Positions 7,751 through 62,000 of a stretch of 64,000 bases of DNA are shown here, in pieces; within the stretch, counting starts at the first letter, position 1; every line of letters starts with the position of its first letter. The stretch covers positions 1 through 64,000 of the forward strand of contig RWJK01001453.1 in the NCBI GenBank assembly GCA_004335835.1, in the 5' to 3' direction. The notes beneath the pieces are model-generated. The model had not been told where the DNA came from, searched no databases, and saw nothing but the letters and a program-made list of their open reading frames with translations. This DNA comes from Scenedesmus sp. ARA3 (lineage: Eukaryota; Chlorophyta; Chlorophyceae; Sphaeropleales; Scenedesmaceae). A program made the position numbers and the translations under genes.

Positions 7751-9881
7751 ATGGAGACTGACAAGGCGTGCGAGAGCTGCATCAATGAAGAGCTCAAAGC
7801 AAACGGTGCTTGCGACCAGGTGCGGGGCTGAGATCACAAGATAGCGCCGGAGATACAGGGTGCGTCCGTCAGCAGACCACTCATGAGGCCATGCATCGTG
7901 CTCAAGCGCGCTCTGTCAGCTGACGGCTCTAAAACGTCAAAAATGGCTGTCGTATGATCTCATCGCAGCCTCCTGATGCCGGTGATCGCCCCCATTGTTG
8001 TGAATCACTTGCGCGCCAGTTTGTATCTGTAACAGAGGCAAGCAGCAGCGCGCATGTTACACATAAATATTCAGGCGTCGTGTCTTAGAAACGGTTTTGG
8101 TCTGTTGCTGCTCGCAATGGTTTGCAGGCGTGCACCCCTCAGGGGCGCTTTCCTGCCGACCTGTCCTGCCAAGAGTCTGGTTGCTTCTCATCGGGTTCAT
8201 CCGAGGCGTCCATTCTTACAAGTAAGCATTTATTTGCACCCTGAACTAGCACTGTCGGGCCCGCTGTACTTGTACACGTGCAGTACAGAGTGCAAGCACC
8301 AGCAGCCTGGATTGCTGAAGGTTGGGTGCACACACATGCGCACCATACAAGAGCCTGCACTCAGGACTGTATAACAGTACAACATGCGCTGCCTGTGGCT
8401 TGTTGCTGCTGCTGCAGGCCATGTGCCTGCAACGCCTGTGGGGATGGACGTGAAGCACGGCCACCTTGCAGCGAGTTCCGACAAGGAGCTTGATGCGCAC
8501 ATGTTTGGCATGCAGGTGATGCGGCAGGCTGCTGCAATTGATTACACCAAGCATTTTTTTTGTTTAATTGGATTTTATTTGTTTTATTTGTTTTATTTGC
8601 ATTTTATTTGTTTAATTGGATTGGAACCAAACGCACGCCACGATATGGTCGGCGCAAGGGCGCAGCAGCAGCACCTAGGATGCATTGCACTGGCAGCCAG
8701 AGGGTGCACCAGCAGACCAGTCAGGCATAAGTAGCCAGCTGGCATACAAAAGCAGCAGCACGGGCTTCTAATGCCGTTGTCTTCTAGCATGCATCTGCAT
8801 GTGTGTCTTGTGCTGTCAGCCGCCTGTCGCACCAGCCTGCATCCACCCTCACACCACCCCTGCACCAGCCTCCGTACACAACCCACACCCCAGCGGCTAG
8901 AATGCTTGCAGTCAGTATACATAAAGCCTGACTGCTACCTGCCTGCTGCTGCCCTGCACTTGCGTCCTCCAGGAAAACCAGCCTGGCCGCTGCTTCTACC
9001 TTGAATCCACACAAGCGCACAGCGGCATGACTCCTGAGCAGCGCGCAGCAGCCATCGACACTATGGTGGCAGCAGCAGCAGCGCTTGGCCTCCACTCAGA
9101 GTCCCTGTTCACAGCTGTAGCATGCTTTGATGCGTACCTTGCTGCGCAGCCAACACACGTGCTGCTGCTGCAGCCACTGGGCGTCGCCTGCCTGTGGCTT
9201 GCAGCAAAGTACGAGCAGCTGTGTGTGCCGTCGGTGCACTGCTTCGCGCAGTTTGTGCGCATGCCGAGCGATGCACCCCCAGAGCTACAGCACAATGCAT
9301 CAGCGCCGCAGCAGCTGCTCGTGCTGCTGGAGGTCCGCGTGCTGCGCACATTAGACTACAATCTGGCTCGCATTGTGACAGCCAAGGCCTTCGTGCATCG
9401 AAGCATGCAGCTACTGGCGGCTGCAATGCAGGACTCAGCAGAAGCAGAAGCAGAAGCAGCCGCTGGCGCAGCAGACCCCGCGGCTGCCGCCGACATGCAG
9501 CAGCAGCAGCAGCAACAGCAGCGGCGGCAGCAGTACCGTCAGTTGTACTGGCTGACAGCTTACCTGGCAGAGGCAAGCCTGTTGGAATACAACCTGCTGC
9601 CGTTCAAGCCGAGCGAGCTCGCTGCTGCTGCGTTTGCGGCAGCGCAGCTGCTGCTGGGCCTCAAAAGCAGCGAAGCAGCGCTGCAATGCCTCATCGGCCA
9701 CAGCGTGGCATCTCTGAAGCTGCCAATGCAGTGGCTGCTGGCGCTGCAGTCTGCGCTGGCGGCGGCTCGAGCCGCCGGCCGGCCGTATGCAGTGAGTGAG
9801 ATCTACGCGAGCCCTGCTGCGCTGTATGCTGCTGACGTGGCGCCTCTGCAGAGCTTGAACGACCCGCGGCTGCTTGCGTGA
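7751..9881 (+). CDS. Cyclin (A/B/F-type cyclin-box protein)
   Basis: It probably activates a cyclin-dependent kinase. Exons are 7751-7819 (start METDKACES), a probable small one at 7969-8028, then 8128-8221, 8418-8515 and 8973-9881. All phases agree, giving about 409 aa. The last exon carries two cyclin folds. The N-terminal box contains SLFTAVACFDAYLAAQP and GVACLWLAAKYEQLCVP, the latter a standard LAAKYE helix. The C-terminal fold contains YWLTAYLAEASLLEYNLLPF and then PSELAAAAFAAAQLLLGL, the typical SLLEY/PS.iAaAA pattern. A Gln/Ala-rich insert of about 45 residues separates the folds. I see no clear N-terminal destruction box. The class is uncertain; cyclin membership is firm. An AT-rich, T-tract sequence occupies the last intron. 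Confidence 0.9.
8550..8625. repeat. TTTTATTTG/TTTAATTGGA low-complexity tract in a cyclin intron
   Basis: The TTTTATTTG word is repeated several times, with flanking TTTAATTGGATT copies on both sides. It is a T-rich island in otherwise GC-balanced sequence. Confidence 0.7.
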
Positions 9882-21908: not shown

Positions 21909-24900
21909 TCACTGCTGCTGCTGCTGCTCGGCCTCGTGCGCAAGCTCGCTGCTGCTGCGGGACCGCGGCAGGCCTGTCCTGCCCAGCGAGCCTGCAGAGC
22001 CAGCCGCAGCAGCATGTGCCGCAACGCCTTCAAGGTTACTGAAGCTGTTGCTGCGCCGCCCCTCCCAGTACTGCCCTCCCCCGGGAGCGATGAAGCTGCG
22101 GGAGAAGCTGCCAGCACCCCTGCTGCCGCCAGGCTGCTGGTTGGATGAGCCCACTCCGCTGCTTGTTGCCATGTTGCTGGCGTTGCCTCCATAATCAGGA
22201 GGTGCAGCCCACATGTCGTAATCTTCACTGCCCGGCGGCGGCTGCTCGTGCTGCTGCAGCAGCTGCTGCTGCTGCTGCTGGAGCTGCTGCTGCAGCTGCT
22301 GCAGCCCGTACGCGTCCATGCCCTGTGCGGCAGCGTAGTACTCGTGCTGCAGCTGCTGCAGCTGCTGCTGCTGCTGCTGCCAGCCTGCGGCCGCCGCTGC
22401 AGGGTGGTGGCTGGGGAAGCTCGGGTGTGCCATCTGCTGCTGCTGCTGCAGCTGCTGCAGCTCCATCCTTGACAGTGGCCCACTGCCAGCAAACCCGGAA
22501 TGGCCCCGCATTGCAGGGCCGTTGCCTGCTGCTGCTGCTGCCATGCTAGGATGCATGCCTGCGCCTGCCATGGGTCGGCCCAGCGGCCCAGAGTAGCCAA
22601 CTGCAGGCTGGCCCACAAAGCCGCTGCCAGGAGTGCGCATGCCACCCAGGGGGCCCGAGGCACTGCCAGCAGCAGCGCCCCCCGGCTGCATGCCACCTCG
22701 CCACGCAACAGCAGGGCCTGCTGCTGCAACGCCCATCGGCGGGTACATCTGGCGGCCCGGGGCGCGGCCAGGCATCTGCTGCTGCTGCTGCATGGCGAGC
22801 TGCTGCATTGCGAGCTGCTGCTGCAGCGCTTGCTGCTGCCCCTGCGCACCAGGCCAGCCAACATGCTGCTGCTGCATGTGTGGCGGCCCTGCAGTATGGC
22901 TTGGTGTGCCAGACAGCATCTCAGGCTCCTCATAGCTGCGCTGGCTATGCAGCCTGTGCTGCTGCTGCTGCTGCCTGCTGCCAGGTCCTACACCGCTGCC
23001 GCTGCTGACGCGCTTGCCGAACCCTGGCGACCCCGGCCGCTGCTGCTGCTGCTGCTGCGCAGGGCGTGCAGCGCCCATGTGTGCTGCCATTGCAGCCGCA
23101 ACTTGCGCTTCTTGGTTGTCCGAGGCTCCTCGTGACAGCGCAGGCTTTGATGACAAGCTGCTGCTGGCAGATGGGCTGGACGGGATGTAGCTGCTGCCAG
23201 TGTGCATGCTGCTCTGCGGGGAAGGACCCGTCAGGATCTGCGGCAGACCATAGCCTGTTTGCTGCTGCTGCTGCTGCCCAGGTGCAGCTGCGGCAGCTGC
23301 TGCTGAGCTGTCCAGCACCTGCTCTAGCACGCCACCCCGAGGCATCTGCATGTGCTGCTGCTGCTGCTGCTGCATGGTGCTGGTTGGGCTGCTGATGCTC
23401 ATTGTGCTGGCACTGCTGGTAGCTGGCTGCAGCGGGTAGCCTGCTGGGTTAGGGTACCCTGCCGCTGCACCACCAAAGCCTTGCTGCTGCTGCTGCTGGT
23501 AGTATTGCGGCTGTGCCGGCGTGCGCTGCTGCTGCGGCATAGGCAGCATGTTTGCTGCAGGCGACATCGGGGTACCCATGCTATGCGCCATGGACATAGC
23601 CGGCCACTGCCCCGAGTTTGCGGCCTGCTGCTCCTGCTGCTGCTGGTTCAGCAGCTGCTCGATCTCCAGCTGCTGCTTCTGCAGCTCCAGCCGCGCCGCC
23701 TGCACCTGCAGCACCTGCTGCTGCAGCAGCAGCTGCTGGTGCGTGCGCGCGGGATCCCCGGCATCCCAGCTGGCAGTTGCGCTGCCCGGCTGCGGGCCAT
23801 TGTTGAAGGACCGGTTGCGGCCGGCGCTGGGCGGGCCGCGCAGCGGCGCGAGCGCGGCGTTGCGCTGCTGCTGCTGCATGCCGAGCATGCTGCCAGCGCC
23901 GGCTGTGTGCGGGCGCGGCATTCCTGGCATGCCATACCCTGCCATGCCTGGCGACACGCGGGCCTCAGAACCCGAGTAATAATACGCCTCCAAGTTATCG
24001 GCCTCGATCGAGTCTGGCAGCATGGGTTGCGACGCGAACGAGGCGTGCGGGCTGTGCTGCGCAAAGCCCACATGGCCGAACATGGCAGCTGCAGCCGCCT
24101 CATCCATGCTGTGCATCAGCGGCGAGCGCGGCCGGCCGCCGGCAGAGCGGCCGCCAGAACTCGGCACGCGCTGCTGCTGCTGCTGCTGCTGCAAGCCGGC
24201 CATGCCCTGCCTGCCAGAGCCAGCGCCAAACATTGCCACTGCTGCTGCTGCACTCCTGGGGCTGCCCATCTCCAGCGAGTCCGCTGTCTCGTCCTCCATC
24301 TGCTGCTGGTGCTGCATTGCGGCGTGCAGCTGGTGCTTGTTCAGCTTGAACGACACGTTGCGCTTGGCGGGACGGTGGTGGCCCGACCTGCCGCTTGATG
24401 CAGCTGCAAAGCCTGTCGGCGGTGACACAGTGCTGTCGCCGCGTGCTGAGGGGCCTGCAGAAGCACTGCCAGCACCACCTGCTGCTGCTGCTGCTGCATC
24501 GCTAGGAACACCTGTTGAGCCCTGCCTTGCCATGCCGAGGGCGCTGCGTGCCTTCATTGCCATGTTTGGCTGCTCATCAGGCGCCTGCGCTGCTTGCTGC
24601 TGCTGCTGCTCAGCAGCTGCAGCGTCGGCGGCAGCCGCATGCTCCTGCTGCCCAGCCGGCAGCGACCTCGCAGAGCCAGCCGAGTAGCTGGAGATGTTGC
24701 TCGGGTGCTTCAGCAGCGTGCCAGGCGCACCCGCTGCTGCTGCCGCTGCGCCATGCCCGGCCGGCCTGCCAGGCAGCTCTGCCTGCAAGCTGCCTGCTGG
24801 CGACAGCGAGCCATACTGCTGTGCGCTGCTGGTGCCGCGCAGCTGCTGCTGCGTCGGCAGCTGCATGCTGGCTGGCAGCTGCGCTGACTGTGCACGCGCA

Positions 24901-27235
24901 AAGCCTTGGCCGCCAGATCCGGGCAGCGCAGCGCTGAACGAGCTTTGCAAGGGCTCGAGGTTTGCCTGCGCCATCATATACTCCTGCTGCTGCTGCTGCT
25001 GCGGGTGCCAGGCGCCAGCCTGCTGCTGAGCCAGCAGCATCTGCTGCTGCAGCGCCTCGAAGCGCGCCCGCAGGTCGGCTTCATCCTCGGCACTGCTCAC
25101 ATTGTACTCGCACGCTGCAGCCGCCGCTGCTGCTGCTGCTGCCATGGGGTGTGTCGGGCCGTATGATGCATCCCAGGAGTCCCTCCGCCGCCGCCCGCGC
25201 GGCTGCCCAGGCTGCCAGCCTTGCTGCCTGGCGTAACCTGGCAGCTGCTGCTGCAGGCTCAGCATGATGTCCTCCTCGCTGAACGCTGCATCTGGGCCAA
25301 ACTGCTGCCGCAGCTGCCGCACATGGCCCGAGAGCTCCGCAGCACTCATCGTGCTCGCGCCACGGCCCTGCGGGAAGCGCCGCATCTGCTGCTGCTGCTG
25401 CTGCTGCTGCGAGTTCATCCAGCCCTGCTCGGCCCGCAGCCGCGCAATCACCTCCTCAGATTCGGCCTGCGCGATCTGCTGGTACATCAAGTCTGCTGCC
25501 GCTGCTGCCGCCGCCTCCTCCTCTTCCTCATTAATCGTGCCATCCTGGCCCGGCCAGCCGGTTCCCCAGGGCATCTCAGGCAAGCTGTGCTGCATGTACT
25601 GCGCGGCCCGCAGCTGCTGGTCAAGCGCCGGCACGCTGTGCAGCATCCTGTTGCTGCCCTGGCCTGCTTTCTGCGCTGCGCCCTGCGGTTGCGCCAGCTG
25701 GCTCGCCTGCAGCGCGCGCAGCTCCGCTGAATTCAGCGCCAGCTGCTGCAACGCGCCGGATGATAGCTCCTGCACTGACGCCAGGCCCAGAGCATCGCCA
25801 GCAGCACCTTGCTGGCCCTGGCCTAGGAAGCTGTAGTGCCGCGCCGGCGGCCGCCGCTGCTGTCCGTCCGCGCGGCTCCCCGCTGCTGCGCCGCGCGCGA
25901 TCTGCTGGCCCAGCTCCTCGCCGTGGCTGCCAGTCCTGCCGGGCGGCGCTGCTGCTGCTGCGGATGCGCTGCCGCTGCCGCTGAACGCCCCGGCCGCGAT
26001 TGCGCTACGTGCAGCCTGCCAGCCGCCGCCTGCCACATCCTTGTCATCAGCTTTGCTCAGCCTGCTGAGCTGCCAGCCGTGCTCGCGCAGGAACTGCCGC
26101 AGCTGATCAATATCACCCACACCAGCCTGGTGGAGCTTCGCCAGCTTATCATCCTCCTCTGCCATTGCAACAGCCTCCAGCTCTGCTGCCACATCCTCCG
26201 CAACAGCCTGCCGCCCAAGCATGCCGCTAACGCTGCCCGAGCTATCCCTATCCCTCATCGCCGCCCCGCGCGCCGCAGCAGGCGCTGCTGCTGCCGCCGG
26301 CGGTTCCGGCACGACTGGCGGCGCCAGCACCACCCCGACAGACTCGTCTGCCGCTGCTGCTGCTACTGCTGCTGCGTCTGAGTTTGCCGTCACGAGCGTA
26401 TCCCTCGCGCCATCATGCGAGCCGAGAGAGGTCCTGCGAGTAAGCTCATGCAGCACCTTGGTGTATGCTCGCTGGCCCGCATCAGCATCATCCACGCCTG
26501 TAGCCGCAAGCGGCGCCGTCTGGCCAAACTGCCGCCCCAGCTCCCATTCCGAGGGGTCTGCCGGCGCTGCTGCATCGCCAGACGCCATGCTGCTGTCTGC
26601 GCGCGCAAGCTGCTGCCCGTTGCTGTCATCCTGCGCGGCCGCAGCTGCTGCCGGCGCTGCATGCGGCTGCAGCACAACCTCCTCTGCATCCTCCTTCACA
26701 GGAGCTACAGGGCTTGCATCCATGCTCATGTAGCCGCCATACGCGCTGCCAGCTGCTGCGGCGCCGCCAGCAGCAGCAGCAAAGTTGTTGATCTTTGACG
26801 CGATGCTGATGTTGGCAGGCTGGCTCAAGCTGCGGTGCGACGGCGATGCCGCGCCAGAGGCTGCTGCCGCAGCGCCGCCTGCAAATGCTGCAGCAGTAAC
26901 CTCCACTGCTGCGCCAGCGCTGCTCAAGCCGCCTGCTGTAACCGCCTGGCCGTCAGCATCGTCAGCAGCAAGCTCAGTGCGGTCTGTCACTGGCACAGTG
27001 ACGTCGCGCGCCTGCTGCTGCTGCTCCTCCGGCTGCTGCACCGCAACAGTGCCGAATGACGGCATCTCTGCCGTAGACCCGGTCTTGTCTGCTGCTGGAG
27101 CCGCTGCTGCTGCTGCTGGCGCCGCCGGCGCAGCTGCCTGCCTGCTCTCCACGCCCTGCAGCCTGCTGCTGCTGGCTTCGTGCAGCGCGCCTGACATGCG
27201 CATGCCGAGGCTCATGCTGCTTGCTGTGGATGTGC
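21909..27235 (-). other. About 1,770-residue Gln/Ala/Ser/Gly-rich C-terminal tail in one exon
   Basis: The frame stays open for 5.3 kb and directly continues the last TPR. It is dominated by Gln runs (up to about ten), Ala runs, and Met/Gly/Pro-rich spacers. One predicted helical island is IDQLRQFLREHGWQLSRL and another is KRNVSFKLNKHQLHAAM. I see no enzymatic domain. The length and lack of stops argue for real coding. Confidence 0.85.
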
Positions 27236-27382
27236 GTGGATTGGTGGCCTGCTTGAGCAGCGTGTGTGTGCGCTGCGTGGCTGGGTGGCTGCTGCCCAGC
27301 TGCCCGATGAATATCTGCACAGCTAGGGATAGCAGCGGCTCTGCCTCGTGGTGCTTGTCCTGCATCAGCAGCACCTCGGACA

Positions 27383-27418
<36 letters not shown>

Positions 27419-30400
27419 GGGCGGTGACCGCTTGTTAGCAGCAGGCTGGGCAGGATGTGGTAGAACACGGCATGCTTGAACATCCTAATAGGTAGGGCCA
27501 TGCGATTAGATCCACTATTGCTCAAGCAACACCACATTCTCTCATGCAACGCGTGAGAGACATCACGCATCTCTCCACGCACCTGTAAGGCTGTGCGCTA
27601 GGTCTGGGTGCTCGTTGTGCAGCACCTTCTGCCTGATGGACAGCGCCGCCTGGCCTGCCGCCAGCGCCTCCTCAACCTTGCCCATGTCCAGGTAGATCAG
27701 CGCCTGCAGCAGCAGCAGTAGCAACAGTAGGAACAGCGTCAGCAGCAGCAGCAGCAGCAGCACCGTGTCAACATACGCTGCTGCGGCAGCTGTGCGGCTG
27801 CTACTCAACAGGGCATCGCTTGCCAAAGAAACTCCTCGAACACTCGCACGCGTGGCACCCTTTGACAGAAAAACTGAACACCTTAGAACCAAATCATCCA
27901 AACATCGCAATACAATCGCACTACCCCAGCCAGCCTCTTCCTCACCTGCAGGTGCAGCGCTGCCGCCATCTGCAGGCCCTGCGGCTGCGAGGCCCTCAGC
28001 GCCTGGCAGCGCTGCGCCACCTCCAGCGCTGGCTCTAGCTGCTGCCGCATGCGCAGGATGTGGCCCAGCGTCTGCAGCGAGATGGCCACGATGGGGTGGC
28101 TGGCGCCCAGGTCCTGCGGCGACAGAATGCAACAAGCACGGCATGCAGCAGCACGCGTCAGGCTAGTGTGGCATGCGCAGGATGTGGCCCAGCGTCTGCA
28201 GTGAGATGGCAACGATGCGGTGGCTGGCACCCAGGTCCTGCGGCCACAAGGCGCAGCAACAAGCCATCATGTTTAATGCAGCACAGGCGAAGCCCCCTAA
28301 TCAGCGAAGTGTTTCAATGCCCATGTGCTCCTGTAGTGTTCATTGCTGCTCGAGCGCCGCCAGCACAGGCACAGCACCTTTAGAGCAGCGGACGGCTGGC
28401 ATGTGGCCAATTGGTCAATAAATCATTGCATAGTGGCCTATTGGTCAACAGCCATCGCTGCATCATCGCCGCCACAACAAGCATCTTAAAGACAGCAGCC
28501 ACAAGCCACACTGCCGCACCTTCTCGCGCATGGCCAGGCCCTCGCGTGCTGCTGCCTCAGCATCTGGCAGCCGCCCCATCTCACGCAGCACCTCCCCCAG
28601 GCAGTTGTGGCAGCTGGCCACAAAGCTGTTGCGCTCCGCAGCAGGCCCAGACATGTGCCGCGCTGCTTCCAGGCAATCCGTCGCAAGCTTCTCCGCCTCG
28701 TTTGCACGGCCTAATAGCACGAGCGCTAGGGCCTGCATGGTTGTCGCCACGATAACGGGCTTGCTGCTGGCGGGCTGGTTGAGCTGCTGGTACACCCACA
28801 CGGCGCGGCTGCAGTGCGACTCTACCTCAGCATACCTGCGCAGCAGCAGCAGCGCCAAGGACAAGAGCAGCGGGCAGCGGCTGAGTGCACTGCTATTGTG
28901 CACAGTATGTGCCGAATAACTGCGCCAAAAACAAGAGCAGCGGGCAGCAGCTAAGTGCACTTCTGCCATGCACAGTGTGTGCCGAACAACTGCGGCAGGA
29001 ACGTGCGGCTGTGCCGAGCGGCAGCGCGCGCGGTCCTTGCACAGCATCTGCTGCCATTCAGTCTTCGACTGCCGTTCTCCTGTGTCGTTGCACCGCTCAC
29101 ACGCATCTACATTTGCCAACACTTGATACATATACTACATATACTCACTTGCCCAGGTCCAGCATGACGTCCGCCACCACTTGCATCGAGGCAGCAGTGT
29201 CTGGGTGCAGCTCCCCGAGGCTCTTCTTCTTGACCGCCATGCAGCGCTGCGCCAGCGGCAGCGCATGTGCGGCCTTGCCCGCGCCGCGCAGCAGCGAAAC
29301 TAGCGAAGTGAGGCAGTTGAAGGTGTCCGGGTGGTGCAGGCCGGACACAGACTGGTACACCTGCGGGCGGAAGCAGTGAATGAGGAGCCGCCGCAGCAGA
29401 CAGCAGACGATGGTGGATGACTCAGCAACTCAGCAATGGACGGCTGGAGAGACTGACAGGAGGCAAAACACAAGCAACTGCAGATGCACACAACATCCCA
29501 TGTCATGCATGCATTCTTTGCGGCCCACAATCACGCCACCGTGCCAAAACACAGCTGAGCGGACTCAACATAACACGCCACCAGCCACCAGCAGCACACA
29601 CCTGCAGCGCCTTGCGGTACGTCTGCTCCGCCGCCGCCTGCTTGCCCTGCTGCGCGGCCAGCTGCCCCAGCATCATCAGCTGCGCAGCCACGCGCGGGTG
29701 CTCGCTGCCCAGCTGGCCCTGCAGCAGCGCCAGCACCTCCTGCGCCAGGCTCTGCGCCTCGTCCAGCCGGCCTGCCTGGCGCACCACCTGCACAGAATGC
29801 ACAAAATCAAACAACAAACATTCCTTGTGAGCACGAACTGAGAATGCACAAAAGGTTGTATACAGTTTTCAGCATGCGGCTTCTACAACTGCAGACTTTG
29901 CGCCTCGTCCAGCCTGCCGCCTGGCGCACCACCTGCACAACAAACCGTACACATTCACTGTGAGCATGAGCTGACCTGATGATGCACAACAGACTGCACA
30001 GGTTTTGCACAGTTTTTTTTGCACAGGTTTTGCACATAAATACATTCATTGTGAGCGTGAACTGGTTGAGCATGCACAGCAACGTGTATACATTTTGACC
30101 ACGGATTGATGTCCAGCCTCCAACAGTCCAGCCGCCGCGCCTGGCGCGCCACCTACACAACAGGTACACAATTATCACGACCCACATATAACATGAGCAT
30201 GTTGATCACACAGCCGCACGCTATGTGCAATCACGGTTGTCAGTCAAGCCATAATTGACTTGCCTGAGTGTAACTGGCAGAGGCACCTGCTACAAGCAAC
30301 TGGCGCAATTGAAGCCATGCGTGCCTATTACGCCACAGATGGCAGCCACAGTCCCCCACGGCCCCACGCACCTGCGCCAGCTGGTTCTTCCACACCGCGA

Positions 30401-33400
30401 CCTGCACGTCGTTGGGGCCGTACGCGGCGCCGCAGATGCCCAGCGCGCGCGTGACCACGCCCTCAGCCTCCACATACTTGCGGCTGCGGCGCAGCAGCTC
30501 AACCTGCAGCTGCAGCACTGCCAGCAGCTCCGCGCTGGCGCCGCCATACAGCGTCTCCTGCAGGGGCAGCGACGCACCAGGTTGCATAACATTCTCAATA
30601 CCTGTCAATTCACGTATAGCAACACAACACTTGTCTGATCCTGATGTGAACATAGAGAGCAAAAGGCGAGCGTTCGCATGCAGCGCCTACTGGGAGATAG
30701 CATGCTCTACGCAAGTCACCAGCCGCGACAGACCACACCAAGCACCACACGAAGCATCCCGCATGCTGCTGCTGCCAGCTGCCACGCACCAGCATCTCCA
30801 GCCCCTGCGCCAAGTGCTTGCTCGCTTCCGATGGCTTGCCGGCCTTGAGCATGAGCGCGCCCAGCTCCTGCAGGGCAGCAATGCAGACAGCAATTACAGG
30901 AGCGGTCAACCTTTGTCAACATTTATCATGTATGATATTTGATATTTTCTGGCTGAAGACTGCCTGACCTCAGCATGCCATGCCGTGCTGCCAAGGGTTT
31001 GTCACACTTGCCAGTTGCACTAGGGCTGTCGGCAACTCTTCTCCACCCGTGCCACGCGAGCAAGCCGCGCCCCGCTGCACAGCATCACGCACCTTGTAGC
31101 AGCGCGCCACCGCCTGGTGTGGGCCCTTGAGCTCGCGCCAGAAGTACTCCAGCGCCTGGCGCAGCATTGCGTCCGCGCGCTTGAGTGCTGCTGACTCAGC
31201 CAGCAGGCCGCCCAGCACCATCATCAGCTCCGCACTGTCCAGCGTCATGTCCAGGAACTGCGCGCGCTCCAGCACCACCTGACAGAAGCCTGCAGCGGCA
31301 GCAGCAGCGCAGCAACAGCAGAGGGACAGGCGGTCCGTCAGACACACATGTCCAGGAACTGCGCGCGCTCGAGGGCCACTTGGCAGAAGCCTGCAGATGG
31401 CAGCAGCAGGGCAGTATCGCAGCAGCGCAGCCGAGAGAATGGCGAACATGAAGTCAGTCAGACTGGCACATCTAAGAACTGCGGCCGCTCCAGCACCACC
31501 TGGCAGAAGCCTTCGGCAGCAGCAGCGCATCGCCAGGACAATGCAGCGTGCTTATAGAATCTGGCACATGCCACCATCTGCAGCACAACTCACGCACTAA
31601 ACAAATCGAGAGGCAAACAGCCCTCGCCTTTCCAGGCCAAACCCGTTACACCCCCCACACCACACCCCACGCACCCTGCAGCGTGTAGGAGCTGACGCTG
31701 CTGCTCAGCAGCGGCATGAGGTCCCACGCCATGCTGACATACAGCGGCAGCATGTCCTCCCGCACTTCTGTGAAGGCCCAGTTCACCAGCTGCACCACGT
31801 GCACAGACAGCCGGCTCCATGCCAGCCGCGCAGACAGCATGCGGTTCTTGGCAATCAGCGGCAGCACTAGCCGCCGCGCTGAGGACACCAGCAGCTCAGC
31901 AAAGCGACGACGCGTCTCGTTGTACGGCAGGCCTGCACAGTGCAACACATAAACAACACATCCATTGAGTGAAGTTACACACAGTTGGACAAGCCACAGT
32001 GGTGCAGAGCAGTCATACGTGCATATAAGAGTGCATGTATGCCCTGAGTCGCGGCTACAGCGTCACATCTGCACATGTACAACCACTAGCAGAGCACAAC
32101 ATGTGCTTGCCCGTGGCTGCTACTTTGTACAACGCTGCATCTTATGCCACAAAGCAGCCTGAAGCAGCAGCTGCACACGTTCTTGCGCTTCACCCACAAA
32201 CACACGGACCAGCTGGACAGCCAGCCCCTCAACCAAATGGTGCACCAGCAGCCATGCAGCGTCCCGGACCAGCTTGTGCATCTATAACAGCAGCTGCATG
32301 CCTTGCCTACAGCGCAGACAAACAAATATGCTGCCCATCGAGCCACGCTCCTCCTCCTCACCTAGGTTGTGCACCAGCACCCGCGCAGCGTCCCGCACAA
32401 GCTTGTGCATTGTAAATAACTGCAGCGACGCATTGTAGCTCAGCAGGCCCAGGTTTACTAGCCGCCGCATGATTGCGCGCCGCTCGTTGTTGGTGAGCGG
32501 CAGCGCTAGCAGCGGAGCCGCCATCTCAAAGCTGAACGGCGCCGGCAGCAGCGACAGCACCAGCAGCCCTGTCACGAGATCATCTGGCAGCGCAATCGCA
32601 GCTGCAACCAGCACCCTGCAGCCATCACGGCGGCAGCAGCAGCAGCAACCAAGACTGTCAGGACTGCCGAAGTGTTGTAGCAGTCCTGCACACCACGCAA
32701 GCAGATGCGAACAGAGGCAGTGTGCAGAACTTTGCAGAAGACAGGTGTACTCTGGTGTCGAGAGACAGACAAGCTGCTGCTGCCTGCTAGAGCTTGCATG
32801 TTGGGCAACATACCTGAGCACCCGCTCGTGCGTCTGCCTGCTCTCAAATGGCAGGTAGCTGCTGGTGTTGCCGTCGCTGCCGCCATGATCAATCGGCAGC
32901 GCGCGGTCGCTGTAGATGCGCAGGAAGTCGGCCGCGCTGCAGTAGCCGCAGCGCATGAGCCCGCACACCACAGCCAGAGCCAGCGGAGTGCCCTGGCACG
33001 CCTCTACCACGCACTGCACGTGCTCCTGCAGGGCAGACACGCAGCAGATGCACATATGTGCACGTCAGCCACTGCTGCATTACTCATGCTGTTAGTAAGC
33101 AACATCAGGCAGAGCAAGGCAGCGTGCAAGTTGACCACGAAGCAGGCAAGACACATAAGCAAAGTGTGTGACCTCAGCACTTGAGCTTGGATCATGAGTT
33201 CAGCCTGAACTCACCTGCTTCACGTTGGCCTGCGCCTGCTGCACCATCTGCCCCGCCACCTCTGCTGACAGCGGCTCCACTTGCACTGCGCGCGCAAGGT
33301 ACGTGATGCGCGACAGCGGCTCCTCACACACCACCACCACCTGCAGCTTGTGTGAAGACTGCAGCAACAGCAGACAGGGCCGCAGGCAGAGCAGCAGGTT

Positions 33401-36400
33401 GCGGATGGAAACAGCATAGCACCACCTGGCAGGCCAACCAAGGTACCGTACATGGCATGTTATCATGCTTATGGCCACTGCCTGCTGCCACATTGAAGTG
33501 GCGAGATGTTCATGCTCAATACCAGCAGGATCACACAAGCTTGCTGTTGGTTTCTTGGATGCGACAGGCAGGAATACATGCCAGTCACGCAACACGCGCG
33601 CATGCTATCCACACTGCAAACCCGCCGTCCCTCCAGCCAGCTTCAGAATGCCATCCAGCGGTCTGCTCTGATACTATACAGCAAGCATGCTAATGTGACT
33701 CACGTGCAAGATGTTATCCAGCAGGTCCAGGAAGCCCTGCTGCTCATCTCTGCAGCCAGCTTCACCCTGATCAACGCTGCTTTGGAACATGATCTTAAAC
33801 ATCCGCCAGAATGCCAAAGCCTCACACTCACATGCAGTATGTTATCCAGCAGGTCCAGGAAGCCCTGTTGCTCCTCAGCCGGCGCGCTCAGCAGCTCCTG
33901 CACGTGGCTCAGCACGATGCCAAAGCGCTCCCGGGGACGGCCCTCCAGCCACGCCAGCAGCTGCTGCGTGTCTGGGACATCACTGGTCAGGCCCAGCCCA
34001 GTCATCAGCTGCTGGCCTGCAGGATAAAGTACAGTGCAGTGTGCAGCAGTGTGTTGGAAGTGTGGATGCACAGCAAGCCAGCAGCTGCTGAGTGTTTGGC
34101 ACATCGCTGGTCAGGCCCAGCCCAGTCATCAGCTGCTGGCCTGCAGGATAAAGTACAGTTGACATGCAGCAGTGGGTTGGGTGCAATGCACAGCAAGTTA
34201 GCAGCTGCTGAGTGTCTGGGACATCACTGGTCAGGCCCAGCCCAGTCATCAGCTGCTTGACTGCACGACAATACATTGCAGTAAGCAGCAGTGTGTTGGG
34301 TGCAATGCACAGCAAGTTAGCAGCTGCTGCGTGTCTGGCACATCGCTGGTCAGGCCCAGCCCTGTCATCAGCTGCTGGCCTGCAGGATGAAGTACAGCTG
34401 ACATGCAGCAGTGTGTTACAATTGTGGATGCACAGCAAATTAGCAGCTGCTGCGTGTCTGGCACACGCTGGTCAGGCCCAGCCCAGTCATCAGCTGCTGG
34501 CCTGCACGATAAAGTACAGTCGGCATGCAGCAGTGTCTCGAGTGTGGATGCACATGCACAGCCGGCCTGCAGAGCCTCCTTCAGTAGCCATGACGTGCGC
34601 ACAAGCTGAATGCTTTGCTACTGCTGATTACCAAAACTACTAGCTGCACCAGCACGGCCATGCGGGTTCAAATCAGAACGCGCAACAATCAGCAAGCAAG
34701 CACTGCTGCCCTGCTGGCCACATCGCCTCGCACGCTCGCAGCCTCGCGGCCCCGCACCTGCCAGCACCACATTGCTCACGCCCTGCAGGTCAATCCAGTA
34801 CGCATCTGTCCAGTGGTGAGATACCACCAGCTCCTGTGCCATGCTGGCTGCCAGCATGCTGCGGCCCACCCCATGGGACCCGGTCAGCATGACCAGGTTG
34901 GTGCTGACGTCAGCCATGCCCAGCACCAGCTCAGCAACCTCCTCCTCACGAGGCACGTGGTACACAGGGAACTGCAGCAGCAGACATGTGGAAGCAGCAG
35001 CGCAGCACAGCAGCGCAGCACAGTAGCACAACAGGCAGGAGGTTGGGACACGCCTGCACGCAGTCACGCGGTCCAAGCGCAGCTGCGGAAACAGATAAAG
35101 CAGCACAGCAGAGCAGCTGAGCAGCCAACCAGTGAGGCGCGCCATCAACTGCCACTGCTTCGTCTCGCAGCTTGCACCGGGCAGCAGTGCACACGCCGAT
35201 CGAACCACCCAGCCTCAAGCCTAGCCTCAGCCCCAGCCCTGCCTGCACCTCTGGAATGAGCTGTGATTGAAGGTCACATTTCAATCAAATGTCAGCGCTA
35301 GCTAGCCGCACCTCTGGGAAGTTGTGCAGCCTCGGAATCGGCTCCTGCAGCACCCGCAGGTCCCGCAGCCAGCCAGCCGCCCCCTGCGGCCGCTTTGCCG
35401 ACAAGTTGCCTGCGCTGGATCCGAATGTGGGCAGCGCGCTGCCTGTGGTACTGTGCTCCTTGAGCTTCGCCTGGATGACCATAGCCGGGCTAGAGTTTGG
35501 CGGGAACGCAAAGTCCAGCTCAGCTATTGTTAGCAGGCCGTGGCTGCCGCACTGCAGGTGCTGCTGCACGTAGTCTGTCGTGAACTTGTCCAGCTGCTGG
35601 TCCAGGCCCCAGATGTGCGCCTGCGGCGCGATGGACACAACAGCAGGCAGCCGCAGTAAAGCATCAGGCAGTGTCAGCACACGCCCCTGAACCATCCCAA
35701 GCTGCTGCTGCAACATCACATCAACAGCCAAATTCAAACAATTTGCCCGCATGCATGCCATGCCAATGCCACTAGAGCAGCAGCCAACAGCACACTGCAG
35801 GCCTGCTGCACCCAGCCCACCTGCGGCTGCACCAGCTTGTACCAAAACTCCCGCCACGTCACGCGCTCCCGCCCGCCAAACGCGCCGCGCCACTCGCTGC
35901 GCACTGTGTCATTGCGCAGCACCATGAACGGCTCAACCACAGACAGCGTGGCCGGCCGCCGGCCAGGCCCCAACGACCTCTGCCGCCGCAGCATGCCGCC
36001 ACCACTGCCGCCGCCGCTGCCTGCGCGCCCGACGCCGCCGCTGCCGCTGCCGCTGGCGGTGCTGGACACGTAGAAGCTGCTCTCCCTGCTGCCTGGCCTG
36101 CTGTCGCTGTCGCTGAACCACAGCTGGCTGGACAGGTAGTGGTCGATCTCCTGCTGCAGCAGCGTGTCGATGTTCGAGCCAGACGGCAGGTGGTGCAGCA
36201 GCGACTGCAACCGAATTGTGGCTGACAGCGGGTCGCGCAGCAGCTTGGTGATGCCGCCCAAATGCTTTAGCGCAGCCTCCAGCTGCTGCTGCTGCGGCGC
36301 GTACGTGTGCGGCCTGCGCAGGTCTGCAATGGGCTGCTCTGATGTGTCAGCGCCTGCAGCCTCCATCGCATTCACCAGCAGCTGGTCTAGCCTGTTAAAG

Positions 36401-38793
36401 TCGTCCTGGTCACGCACGCTGTTCAGCAGCCGCAGCAGCCAGCCACTGCAGGGCGCAGACACGAGACCGCACACAAAGAGACATGTTTGATTGGCGACAC
36501 AGGCTTCACACTGCTCCTGCAAGAGCTGCGCAAGTGCTGTACGCCCAGAACTTCAAGATATGATAAGCCAAGCCAGCAACTACAAGTCATGACGCCGCTG
36601 TCACAGCAGCAAACTATTGCAATTGCTCACCGCTCGGAAAACTGGCTGAACACGTCGTACGCATCCTGCACCAGCAGCGACAGCTGTGACAGCATCACCG
36701 TCTGCCGCTGCAGCGCTGCATGCGGCAGCGCCAGCAGGTAGTCCTGCACCAGCACGCAGCGCTGCAGCAGCTGGTGGCAGTTGTCGTAGTGGTAGTGCGC
36801 GCCGCGCCGCAGGTCATGCAGCAGGCACAGCGCCTGGCAGTAGGGCACCAGCGACATCGGCACCGGCCTGCTGTGCCTGCGCAGCAACGAAACATGCGGA
36901 ACGGGCGAAACAGGCAGAACACAAAGGCGGGTCACACTTCAATCCTCATGTGCAGTACCATGTGCGGTAGCACGCAAGCATCAGAATGGCTGGCAGCAGC
37001 TGCAGCCTATTTGCTGGAGGGTGTGACTTGCACTGTTGAGGCATGTCACGCTGCTGCTGTGGTTGGGCAAGCGAGGCCTCTCTGCCAACACTGCCGAACA
37101 AGCAGCAGCAGCAACTGCAGCGGACACGGCCACTGTTGCACAGCATCACAAATGCTTCCACGGCCACTGCAGGTGTATGCTCTGCACCAGCACTCAAGCT
37201 GTTGCTGCAGGCATTCGATGTTTGCTCTGTTGCTATTTATAAAACTTCTGCTCCCTTCTGCATGTACGCCTGCTCATCATCTGTGCTGCTGGCCAGCTGC
37301 GCACCTGAACAGCCGCCCGTTTGCTGTGATGCGCAGCACCTGCATCCCCTTCATCTCCTCGAGAATCACGTTGCTATCAGCAGCTGCCTCCGGCGCAGCC
37401 GCATCATCGTCCAGCGGCTGATGCATGCCAGCAAACGACACACCCAGCTGCAGCGGACCTGACAAGTCGCCTGAGCGGCTGCCCTGCCGTGGCGTGACAG
37501 TCGCATACCTACACAGCACCGCAGCATCAGAGGAGCAGAGAGGGCGCACATGCCATCAGCAAGCAGTCAAGTGCACGCGCCTGGACACACGTGATGGTGC
37601 TGGCTGTGATGAGCTTGCAGGAATGTTTGGCTGGCCGCAAGCCAACCTGCCTGCTGCTGCTTATTTGAGCTCAAGACTCATCAGTTGCTGGCAGCAGCAG
37701 GCATGCTGCACGCTGCTGAGCTCCCATGCGCGACATCCCATAGCTGCTGCACCTGTTCAAGAAAGCACAACTGCTTGCAGGACAGCTGCAGGACATATGC
37801 GCATGCTGCAGGCACAAGCTCAAATCACTTGCGCGCACAAGCACTGGTGCAGCCAACTGCATCTTGCGAGTAATGCCAGCGGAGGCCGCTGCTGCAGCTA
37901 CGTACGCTGCTGCATCCGCATACGCACCGGCTGAGAGTGTTAGCACTGGGCGTGTCGGGTTGAGCATCAACAGTCAGCCCTGCTTCCTCTGGCCTGCTGC
38001 CAGCACCCGCCCATGGCAGCGCCCCAGATGACGAGCGCTCAGTGATGGTAGGCATGCTGCTCTTGGTAGCTGCCTGTGTGCTGCTGCTCGGCTGCTGCGC
38101 AGCTGGCACCGTATCAGGCGCATGCTCCTGCTGCAGCTGTGTCCTGGTGGCCAGCAGAGCATGGCGCTCTGCTGCATCCAGCACGCCCAGCTGCAGCAGC
38201 CTGTGATCACTCAACTGCAGCAGCTGCTGGCCTGTAACCCCCTGCAGGACAGGTTGCAGCAGCAGCAGGTGCGATGAGGGCGCAGGCACTGCATCACAGG
38301 CCCATCAGCAGTGGCATAAGGACAGCAGCAGGTGACCTGTAGAAGTTCAGCTGGCTACAGCAGACACAGGAGCCTACGCCTTGCAGCAGAAAGTGGTAAT
38401 ACGTAGGCGTCTTGATATCCTTGACCCGGCTTGCCTACCTGCAGTGCGGTGAGGGATGCCTTCGGAAGCCCAAGCGTGGCAGCCCAGCTGGAGACATCCC
38501 CAGGCGCCCATGATGCAATGTCTGCCGGAAGCTCCGGGCTCACTTGGTCCCTTTCAACTGCGGGTGCAGCCTTTGCCGGTGCAGCAGGCTCTGTGGCAGA
38601 GAGTGGCACGCTCTGAGTCGGTGAAGGCGACCACCAAGCACATCAGCAGGTCTCCTCATCACACGTCTAGACACGCACCTGCTCTTTCGACGCGCAATGA
38701 TGCGCTGTTGACCTTTTTCCCCTGAGCAAAGCTCGGCTGATCAGCTGCTGCTGCTGCTGCACCATCGGGCCCTTTGCTCAGGCAGGCTCCCAT
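21909..38793 (-). CDS. Giant STAND/NLR-like protein: acylation motif, SAM, four-helix bundle, NB-ARC, TPRs, Gln-rich tail
   Basis: This is probably a signal-sensing switch ATPase of the NB-ARC class. I chained 22 exons: 38793-38713, 38612-38439, 38241-37928, 37508-37305, 36876-36631, 36445-35821, 35707-35312, 34971-34758, 34016-33832, 33358-33215, 33025-32814, 32615-32362, 31932-31675, 31289-31093, 30867-30790, 30557-30372, 29787-29602, 29360-29149, 28835-28520, 28113-27946, 27703-27583 and 27385-21909. Every phase matches, the lengths sum to 10,248 nt, and a single stop ends 3,415 aa. Order: MGACLSKG start, SAM (about 61-120), helical bundle (about 265-375), Ser/Gly linker, NB-ARC (about 681-1017), TPRs (about 1100-1640), low-complexity tail. 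The start is the least certain part. Exon 2 could instead join the upstream membrane-protein exon through a donor at 38805/38804, also in phase. Domain calls come from motifs read by eye; transcript data would settle both ends. Confidence 0.82.
28113..28245 (-). repeat. Acceptor-side copy of STAND exon 20
   Basis: The exon start GACCTGGGCGCCAGCCACCC recurs with few changes starting at 28237, 124 bp upstream of the real exon start at 28113. Confidence 0.88.
29775..30155 (-). repeat. Acceptor-side copies of STAND exon 17
   Basis: GCAGGTGGTGCGCCAGGC occurs at the real start (29787), at 29932 and, with TAG in place of CAG, at about 30151. The copies carry the exon sequence for LDEAQSL-like residues before diverging. 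Confidence 0.82.
31275..31515 (-). repeat. Acceptor-side copies of STAND exon 14
   Basis: The GGCTTCTGTCAGGTGGTGCT segment, followed by GGAGCGCGCGCAGTTCCTGG, starts at 31289 and is copied near 31390 and 31510. Divergence follows after the FLDM-equivalent codons. Confidence 0.85.
32362..34971 (-). other. NB-ARC ATPase module of the STAND protein
   Basis: Five exons encode the module. The P-loop is MLTGSHGVGRSMLA (residues about 708-721), with Arg where Lys is normal. Then comes YWIDLQGV (RNBS-A-like), FLDLLDNI as a likely Walker B (about 803-810), LQVVVVCEEPLSRI (RNBS-B/sensor region), CQGTPLALAVVCGLM (the GLPLA helix), a winged-helix-like stretch, and LFTMHKLVRDAARVL at about 999-1012, the MHD position with MHK. 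Confidence 0.88.
33700..34505 (-). repeat. Edge-copy array around STAND exon 9 (Walker B exon)
   Basis: The 5' edge of the exon (TGCAG|GCCAGCAGCTGATGACTG) starts at 34016. It is copied at about 34140, 34260, 34379 and 34501, spacing 119-124 bp. Each copy has about 60 bp of exon-like sequence and then diverges after CAGCAGCTGCTAAC. The 3' edge with its donor (CTGGATAACATACTGCAT|GT) is copied once downstream at about 33705-33745, offset about 129 bp. Confidence 0.92.
36340..36876 (-). other. Four-helix bundle, HeLo/MLKL/MCAfunc-like, in the STAND protein
   Basis: Exon 5 and the start of exon 6 give YHYDNCHQLLQRCVLVQDYL, then a helix with LSLLVQDAYDVFSQFSERGW, then LLRLLNSVRDQDDFNRLDQL. The pattern NC..L..R.......L, a middle helix ending in a polar turn, and RGWL.R.l.s.rD...F..Ld..L is typical of MLKL-type and plant MCAfunc N-terminal bundles. 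Assignment is by pattern only. Confidence 0.6.
38130..38515 (-). other. SAM domain of the STAND protein, split by an intron
   Basis: Exon 2 ends with DIASWAPGDVSSWAATLGLP and exon 3 begins GVTGQQLLQL, then SDHRLLQLGVLDAAERHALL. The W..xdV..Wl..lgl start and the G..LL.Ls...L..lGv...g.R..ll end are the SAM pattern. SAM domains usually oligomerise or recruit partners, which would suit clustering of a STAND switch. Confidence 0.8.
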
Positions 38794-59077: not shown

Positions 59078-62000
59078 ATGACAGCAGTTGAGGCACCAGC
59101 AGCACCTGTGGAGGCCAAAGCCAGCGCCGCAGGGAGAACAAAGCACAAGAACAACCATCAGCGCCCGCAGGAGCAGGAGAAGCGGCAGCAAGAGCACCAG
59201 GAAGCTAAGCAGCAGCATGCACATCCTGCAGACTCCGTCTTCAGTCAAGCTGCAGAGGACGATGAGGCGAGGACTGCAGAACAGCGTCCTGCAAGCAAGC
59301 CGGCCGCAGGAAAGAAACACAAGCAGCACAAGCAGAAGCAGGACAAGCAGCAGCAGCTGCACCAGAAGCAGGAAAAGCCACGCAAGGGCAGGAAGCGGCG
59401 AGTGTTTGGCGTTACGCTGCTGGTGTTTGCTGTGGTGGCAGTGACCCTTGGGTTTGGGGTCCCAAAGGCTGCGCAGGTGAGGCTGTTGACTTGTGACTTT
59501 GGCACCTACTGAAGCACAAGGCAGCTGCTTGGTTCAGCAGCAGTTGGCAGCCGGGATGCCGCCGTATCTCTTAGTAGAATGCAGCCGGACAGCAGGTGAA
59601 CCGTGCGCATGCTAGCGTGCGTCCTGCAAGCAAAGTTGATTGGCAGCCCAGCAGCGAAGTACTTCCTGCAGTGCCGCTGTACACAGTACACACGGTGGTC
59701 TGCCGGTGATGGTGCGCCTGGAGTCTGACATGCATGCTTGTTGTGTGCTTGGGCTGGGGTTGAGTACGACGCTTTCCACCTCTCACCAGCTGTGCATGCA
59801 CACACAGCAACATGCCCTGTTGTTTAGCTGCATGCTTGCGGTGTAAATTGCGTGCTCTGACGCATGCCTGCCCAATGTTACGCTGCTGCTCCTGCAGGAT
59901 GAGCGGGTACGTGCGGCAGTCAACGACAGCGTCTCGCGGCTTAACACCACACTGGTAGGTCTGCTGAGCAGGCTTCTTATTTGCTAACAAGGCTTGCCCG
60001 CTACAAGCAGCGGCATGCAGTGTAGCAGCAGCCTTCTGCGCTGGCTCCACTCTGCGTGCTGCGTTCCACAGCAGTGCCAGCTGCTAGGTTACATGCAACA
60101 GGCTTCGACCAGCAGCAGCAGCAGCAGCAGCAGCCACCCAAAGAGCAGGCTCCCCGCTGGCTGGCGTCCTGACTAGGGAATTGAAACTTGTTAGAGTGCA
60201 GGGCTGAACGTAACAGGACACCGCACGAGCCCGACTGGATAGCAGCCGTCAATCGTTGACGTATCTGGTGACTGATGTCCTTGCAGAGTGATGACAGCAG
60301 TGTTGAGTGCAATGATATGCTCATCGCCTGTGCCTTGCAGGTGGAGCAGTTTGACGTGAGCCTGGACGGCTTTCTTGAAAAGTTGGCCAACCTGAGTGAC
60401 ACAGTCAGCAGCATCATTGGGGACGACGGCCCGCGGCCGGGGCAGATGGCAGCGAAGCAGGGCCTCAAGGCACACCACCCTGTTGTTATTGTGCCAGGTG
60501 TGTGTCAGTCTCTGCAACGCATAGATTCAAACAGGCTGCCACTCGCAGACTGATGCTGCGGTTTGCTTGGATGTTGCTGTTTGCCTCACATGGTTGCTTG
60601 GCGTGACCAGCAAGGGTGTGCATGCACAGCACCATTGCAGGCAGCCAGCCACCAGCCCGCAGGTAACAGGTAAGGGGAGAAACCTAGAGACACCGAGAGT
60701 CAGGGCCCGACACAACCAATGTGAGTGATCAAGACCCTGGTTATCCATCCTGCGTGCTGTCCTTGATCTGCTGCTACTGTACCGCAGGCTTTGTCACCTC
60801 TGGGCTGGAGCTGTGGCAGGGCGAGGAGAGCGCATGCATGACGCAGTTTCAGCCCCATCAGGCCCCATCATGGCAACCTGCTGCTGCTGCTGTGCTGCAG
60901 GCTTTGTCACTGGAAGAACGCAGGGATGCATGAGGCAGAAACCCTGAAACCATGCTGCGCACATAACCCATTTCCTGCTGTGCCGCAGGCTTTGTCACCT
61001 CTGGGCTGGAGCTGTGGCAGGGCGAGGAGTGTGCGCAGAGCTACTTCCGTCAGCGGCTGTGGGGCACGCTGAGCATGGCGCAGACGCTGCTGGCGGACCG
61101 CGGCTGCTGGATGCGGCACATGAAGCTGGACCCAGTCACAGGTGGGCACAGGTGTCTGAAACGCGCACGTGGCGCATGATCATTTGTCATTTGTCAAATT
61201 TGCCGTCCATGCTGGCTAGTAGCGGCTGCTGGATGCGGCACATGAAGCTGGACCCAGTCACAGGTGGGCACAGGTGTCTGAAACGCGCACGTGGCGCATG
61301 ATCATTTGTCATTTGTCAAATTTGCCGTCCATGCTGGCTAGTAGCGGCTGCTGGATGCGGCACATGAAGCTGGACCCAGTCACAGGTGGGCACAGGTGTC
61401 TGAAATGCACACGTGGCGCATGATCACACGTTGCATGATGTGCTGTCCATGCTGGCTTGTAGCGGCTGCTGGATGCGGCACATGAAGCTGTACCCGGTCA
61501 CAGGTGGGCACATACTGTGGTTGAATGCACACATGCCTCAGGCTTTTGGTTTCTGGATGTATTGCGTGTGGGAGGGCAGGTGCTTAATGTGCTGCTGGCG
61601 GACCGCGGCTGCTGGATGCGGCACATGAAGCTGGACCCAGTCACAGGTGTGGTGATCACCACAGCACAGCACAGCACATACATGATGCATTGTTGGTTAC
61701 TTTAGTTGATTGTTGGCGGTTCATAATAAAAAAATTGCAAGATGCAGCACTGCAGGATACATGCACGGCACACCAGCTGTGTCTTCTTTGCATCCAAGCA
61801 CACTGGCTGTATGGCTGCTTCCTTGCCTCAGGTTCTGACCCCCCTGGCATCAAGCTGCGCGCCGCCAAGGCGCTGGAGGCGGTGGACTACTTTGTGCCGG
61901 GCTACTGGGTGTTCAGCAAGCTGGTGCAGTCGCTGGCTGACATCGGCTACGACAACAACAATCTGGTGGGTTGGGGGGGGCTGATGGTGATGCAACACAG

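Follow-up and report, generated by a model that had tools for sequence, protein, structure and literature searches.

A predicted STAND-TPR protein of a green alga in which the residues of the NB-ARC nucleotide switch are replaced

The textbook view of NLRs and Apaf-1 is that of nucleotide switches, and a lysine-to-arginine change is otherwise used to break receptors of this type. A gene on the minus strand of the window (the whole stretch of 64,000 nucleotides of Scenedesmus sp. ARA3 DNA analyzed here) belongs to a conserved family in which the fold is predicted to be kept and this change is fixed, and would let one ask what an NB-ARC body does without nucleotide. Its protein also adds an architecture of SAM, EF-hand-like, NB-ARC and TPR domains to a sparse chlorophyte NB-ARC record.

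Rebuilding the gene from the sequence gave a model that runs from 38793 to 21909 in 22 exons: exons 1-8 at 38793-38679, 38590-38439, 38241-37928, 37508-37305, 36876-36631, 36445-35821, 35620-35312 and 34971-34758; exons 9-16 at 34016-33832, 33358-33215, 33025-32814, 32615-32362, 31932-31675, 31289-31093, 30867-30790 and 30557-30372; and exons 17-22 at 29787-29602, 29360-29149, 28835-28520, 28113-27946, 27703-27583 and 27385-21909. All 21 introns have GT..AG borders. The phases are compatible and the sole stop is the last codon, as an earlier sequence-only reading had claimed; that reading gave the product as 3,415 residues, which our model corrects to a predicted 3390 aa. A public Tetradesmus obliquus protein (T. 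obliquus OEZ86_007890, NCBI, 1635 aa; hereafter P0001) aligns with residues 1-1629 at 99.57% identity, with seven substitutions and no gaps, and diverges beyond that point. This near-identity points to T. obliquus or a very close relative (order Sphaeropleales) as the source species, and it means that a second annotation agrees with our splice sites as far as the beginning of exon 22. Genome protein searches with the NB-ARC region and with the N-terminal part returned matches at this locus only (7/7 and 3/3), so the gene is single-copy as far as those searches see. PADLOC returned one generic TPR model.

The P0001 model omits the C-terminal tail, and its final residues, RLQQAA, are located at 26944 in the window. 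This endpoint ahead of the tail would fit an alternative in which two products, a tail-less protein of 1635 aa and a separate tail product, have been read as one. Exon 22, however, stays open through the last TPRs and the whole tail, with 1824 open codons (300 dinucleotide shuffles gave a mean of 292 and at most 535), and in a related protein from EukProt (P0002, 2716 aa) a single model holds both the TPRs and a tail, which has five collinear islands in common with the tail here; a reversed-tail control gave none. We therefore consider two products improbable, and a single gene model spanning SAM to tail is supported. The tail itself (residues 1640-3390, 21909..27164 with the stop codon, minus strand, exon 22) is Ala/Gln-rich, and the giant Gln-rich tail of the sequence-only reading stands, in an open frame and with its islands kept in P0002. 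A Pfam scan to E 0.1 gave no family for it, and outside the islands it is poorly conserved relative to P0002. Two islands near the tail end, DYDMWAAPPDYG (22223-22188, minus strand) and SFIAPGGGQYWEGRRSNSFSNLE (22097-22029, minus strand), show few changes in P0002.

P0002 is 73% identical to P0001 and has the same domain order from SAM to tail, tail islands included. On the minus strand of the window, pieces at 47306-46379 match P0002 residues 20-115 and represent a neighboring gene on the same strand; most of a CCCH zinc finger at P0002 residues 16-49 (zf-CCCH_AtC3H23, 63.8 bits) lies inside this segment. Because residues 20-115 match the neighboring gene, the P0002 model probably joins two neighbors, and it also shows an apparently conserved gene order. 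Two further homologs, P0003 (Monoraphidium minutum, Sphaeropleales, 1215 aa) and P0005 (ENA, 1129 aa), have models that start at or inside the EF-hand-like domain, so only two sequences back the SAM domain and the helical bundle. Our conservation comparison comprises four sequences (the window protein, P0002, P0003 and P0005). All three homolog searches reached their candidate cap (7994, 7982 and 7996 scored), so the known range of the family is a lower bound; the first of them gave P0001 and P0002 alone and missed P0003, although its length was in range, probably because low-complexity words had taken up the candidate list. On the sequence, the domain order is SAM, helical region, EF-hand-like domain, NB-ARC-WHD, TPR array and tail.

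The core of the protein is a degenerate NB-ARC fold (residues 656-880, 32894..34971, minus strand, exons 8-11). Pfam NB-ARC scores 24.8 bits in the window protein, over its cut-off of 23.5; for P0002, P0003 and P0005 the listing at E <= 0.001 has AAA_16 but no NB-ARC, and AAA_16 exceeds its cut-off in P0005 alone (36.2 versus 32.6 bits). An AlphaFold model with its Foldseek and VIA matches predicts an NLR-like STAND core, and this predicted NB-ARC-WHD fold together with the Pfam score places the window protein within the STAND/NB-ARC fold. Among the closest known systems are the STAND NB-ARC/NLR proteins Apaf-1 and plant NRC1 and NRC2, and the STAND-TPR structure 6mfv. The window protein differs from these in lacking the Walker A lysine, the Walker B acid and the MHD motif, in carrying a SAM and an EF-hand-like domain in front, and in having no LRR family in Pfam scans.

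At the Walker A position (34858..34881, minus strand) the window protein reads GSHGVGRS, with Arg692 (34861-34863) in place of lysine; P0002, P0003 and P0005 read GAPGVGRS, GPAGSGRS and GAPGSGRS, so that GxxGxGRS is found in four of four, and the separate P0001 record (GSQGVGRS) also has arginine. The Walker B position (33901..33924, minus strand) reads FGIVLSHV in the window protein and FGIVLTHI, FGVVVAHT and FGIVVAHT in the same three homologs; none has an Asp or Glu at the acidic position and the histidine is invariant, with P0003 alone carrying an Asp two residues past it. In the ARC2/winged-helix region (residues 900-992, 31931..32836, minus strand), MHK (32402-32410) replaces MHD, and the homologs have MHK, VPG and VPG. 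The P-loop, GLPLA-like and MHD-like motifs of the sequence-only reading are to be corrected to GSHGVGRS with lysine changed to arginine, GTPLA, and MHK, accompanied by a Walker B without its acid. Since the nucleotide-switch residues (Walker A Lys, Walker B Asp/Glu, MHD) are absent in all four sequences, the "switch" proposed in that reading is unsupported. According to PMC6713354, replacing the Walker A lysine by Ala or Arg abolishes nucleotide binding, and in PMC11467418 the P-loop mutant is K74R. Despite its degeneration, the pocket of the window protein may retain nucleotide binding. Two of the seven substitutions relative to P0001 fall near these motifs: H688Q (codon 34875-34873, minus strand) inside the P-loop, and E844G (codon 33004-33002, minus strand) just before CQGTPLAL.

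A six-frame search of the same genome with PF00931, in which genes match exon by exon, gave five matches, with the window gene outside them. The canonical NB-ARC loci show three distinct P-loops, all GKS or GKT and followed by VIDN or VVDN; two loci (L002 and L004) share an identical P-loop, and the fifth match (L001) has no such motif in the stretch examined.

Because the P-loop lysine is arginine in all four compared sequences, a fixed docking platform seems likelier than an ATP-driven immune switch. Our preferred reading, which we hold tentatively and at slightly less than an even chance, is that the gene encodes a STAND (NLR/Apaf-1-like) core without ATP-switch residues that acts as a membrane-tethered, ligand-binding scaffold.

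Tethering is suggested by the N-terminus, where the start codon is followed by the remainder of MGACLSKG (38770..38793, minus strand), with predicted N-myristoylation at G2 and Cys4 as a possible S-acylation site. The sequence fits the PROSITE PS00008 myristoylation pattern, in which MG is combined with permissive residues at positions 3 and 6. P0001 has the same MGACLSKG start, while that of P0002 is hidden by the fusion to the neighboring gene; the MGACLS start was found in one species only. Next in order is the SAM domain (residues 61-125, 38134..38525, minus strand, exons 2-3). Pfam SAM_2, with a cut-off of 20.5 bits, scores 20.1 in the window protein, just under, and 29.6 and 23.2 in the P0002 piece and whole P0002, so that the orthologue upholds the SAM domain named in the sequence-only reading.

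A predicted helical bundle follows (residues 267-392, 36301..36863, minus strand, exons 5-6), with helices in the AlphaFold model and with residues 286-392 79% identical in P0002. The model containing it has a mean pLDDT of 43.4, with the bundle itself at about 50-60. Pfam MLKL_N scores 16.4 bits for a fragment, in which it matches a 52-residue stretch, and 12.5 bits for a longer piece, against a cut-off of 27, and the P0002 bundle fragment matches NopRA1 instead, at 18.4 bits and also under the family cut-off; no Pfam family matches the bundle over its curated cut-off. A Foldseek search with the low-confidence model (pLDDT 43) gave a best E of 1.3. PDB sequence searches with the bundle gave non-significant matches only, namely ANTH-type clathrin-assembly proteins from E 0.73 with a profile and a lipoprotein at E 1.8 with a single sequence. 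The predicted helices and the 52-residue MLKL_N stretch resemble MLKL/HeLo four-helix bundles, but the score is under cut-off, MLKL_N is not repeated in P0002, and no fold match was found. For these reasons, we rejected an MLKL-like membrane bundle as a fact for now. The sequence-only reading had posited a membrane-acting N-terminal bundle: the helices are predicted here too, and "membrane-acting" is unsupported because MLKL_N is under cut-off (16.4 versus 27), the P0002 bundle matches another family, and the model has a pLDDT of 43. The absence of MLKL and CBL among the VIA and Foldseek matches listed for the tested models carries no weight.

Behind the bundle we identified a predicted EF-hand-like domain that the sequence-only reading did not name (residues 513-597, 35486..35940, minus strand, exons 6-7). 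It is 85, 54 and 57% identical over 85, 84 and 49 aligned residues of P0002, P0003 and P0005, and in a low-confidence AlphaFold model it appears as two helix-loop-strand-helix units in an EF-hand-like pattern; a Pfam scan of the domain returned no family. A four-sequence profile searched against the PDB at E <= 10 matched CBL only (17 of 17 distinct sequences, best E 0.1, non-significant); these rows count as one event, since all are chains of one protein. All of them fall at the start of the EF-hand-like domain of CBL, behind its helical bundle. The reversed profile gave three unrelated matches (best E 0.7) and no CBL. With a profile of the whole front end, 7eoy came out on top (E 0.45) and CBL next (E 0.63), CBL making up 17 of 19 rows; in single-sequence searches P0002 matched CBL at E 0.47 (17 of 21 rows), and the window sequence and P0003 gave no match. 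No match came from genome searches with Cbl_N2, MLKL_N or Cbl_N, which is a weak test, as Cbl_N2 matched none of the control genomes and MLKL_N and Cbl_N each matched one, under cut-off. The protein resembles the CBL tyrosine-kinase-binding domain and Cbl-N-type NLRs in that an EF-hand-like domain is predicted behind a predicted helical bundle, with CBL the best PDB match of the former at E 0.1; unlike CBL, it shows no SH2 or RING among its Pfam hits, and the match is non-significant. We regard the link to CBL as a weak lead rather than a result.

These features of the front end bear on a second reading, a non-canonical NLR-type receptor for defense or cell death whose bundle would act on membranes once a pathogen is sensed by the TPRs and which would need no nucleotide, like a degenerate sensor or helper partner. 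Consistent with it are the predicted STAND-NLR fold, the sub-threshold MLKL_N match of 16.4 bits, an acyl start like that of the acylated plant CNLs described in PMC11467418, and the NLRs with a Cbl-N four-helix bundle that PMC11218826 describes from non-flowering plants. Against it, the identity of the bundle is unproven, the switch residues are absent, and genome searches found one copy; the sensor array, described below, also argues against it. Overall we judge this reading rather unlikely, though a defense role for the protein is possible.

The TPR array is of kinesin-light-chain (KLC) type (residues 1078-1612, 27246..31675, minus strand, exons 13-22). TPR_12 (191.5 bits) and TPR_10 (138 bits) each cover seven stretches over cut-off, in keeping with the many TPRs of the sequence-only reading. 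All 14 PDB sequence hits of the array at E <= 0.001 are kinesin light chain (best E 8e-22), and VIA superposes the TPR model on KLC2 with an rmsd of 1.3 over 135 residues, although here the array is part of a STAND protein. TPRs stand where plant NLRs (NBS-LRR) have a C-terminal LRR; Pfam scans of residues 656-1626 (to E 1) and of residues 1647-3390 (to E 0.1) gave no LRR family. Identity over aligned residues of P0002, P0003 and P0005 is 83, 55 and 50% for the TPRs, 77, 43 and 45% for NB-ARC, and 78, 50 and 51% for ARC2-WHD, a comparison made within this family. A receptor in an arms race would be expected to vary most at its sensor array. Here the TPRs evolve no faster than the core, which speaks against the defense receptor, and because they are at least as conserved as NB-ARC, the alignment suggests a conserved partner; this is a rough guide, as the WHD and EF-hand-like domain are about equally conserved.

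The same array raises a third reading, an NPHP3-like acylated STAND-TPR scaffold for cilia or membrane traffic. Nephrocystin-3 has a myristoyl start, a STAND core and KLC-type TPRs in that order, as does the window protein, and TPR_NPHP3 scores 127.4 bits against a cut-off of 100, with 118-126 bits in three orthologues. This tag looks unspecific, however, because it is listed for 24 of 25 proteins, including 21 of 22 non-orthologues (the listing being silent on cut-offs); the three tagged non-orthologues that name an organism are all bacterial. NPHP3 is not known to have a SAM domain, an EF-hand-like domain or such a tail. We rejected orthology based on TPR_NPHP3, and consider the NPHP3-like reading very unlikely.

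Under the preferred scaffold reading, Gly2 myristoylation, perhaps with Cys4 S-acylation, would hold the protein at the membrane, and the SAM domain would favor assembly. An endogenous partner, itself conserved, would be the ligand of the conserved KLC-type TPR superhelix. Its binding would shift or expose the N-terminal module by way of a rigid NB-ARC-WHD block, with no exchange of nucleotide. Partners of the tail would be recruited by its short conserved islands, one of which, RRSNSFSNL, resembles a basic-directed kinase site. Docking of Trp-acidic stretches of the tail in the KLC-like TPRs was also considered and dropped, as the asparagines of the KLC binding site were not seen by eye in the TPR sequence. 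A bolder version, which is possible but on the unlikely side, is that Sphaeropleales algae have a lipid-anchored STAND receptor without an ATP/ADP cycle, for which assembly driven by ligand would be the sole means of signaling. Such a nucleotide-blind relative of NLRs would combine an NLR body with a CBL-like head of bundle plus EF-hand, and the lysine-to-arginine change known from "dead" laboratory mutants would be fixed as its working state.

Proteins with NB followed by TPR, as here, are recorded in bacteria, brown algae and Klebsormidium (PMC7145615) and in Ulva (UM014_0006.1; PMC8891106). The accessible descriptions in these sources set them apart, with no mention of a SAM and EF-hand-like front, an acyl start or a long tail, and with a transmembrane signature in the brown algal proteins. 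Bacterial FxSxx_TPR reaches 217.5 bits in P0001, under its cut-off of 300. In the literature covered, which excludes most subscription journals, we found no description of this protein or domain order.

Six of the 21 introns (34757-34017, 33831-33359, 32361-31933, 31674-31290, 30371-29788 and 28519-28114) contain copies of the ends of neighboring exons at 83-98% identity: eight copies of downstream exon starts, each after AG, and two of upstream exon ends, of which one precedes a GT. The copies score 27.5-57, whereas mismatched exon-intron pairs reach no more than 17.5 (downstream) and 13.5 (upstream). In appearance they are tandem duplications spanning splice borders, with decoy splice sites left behind. 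Elsewhere in the window, tandem arrays at 61100-61512 (about 122 bases, 3.4 copies) and 62314-63044 (about 132 bases, 5.5 copies) have consensus units that by eye hold splice-border-like letters, perhaps because a further gene has undergone duplications of this kind. On the plus strand, 8925-9878 is a 318-aa open frame with Cyclin_N and Cyclin_C over cut-off.
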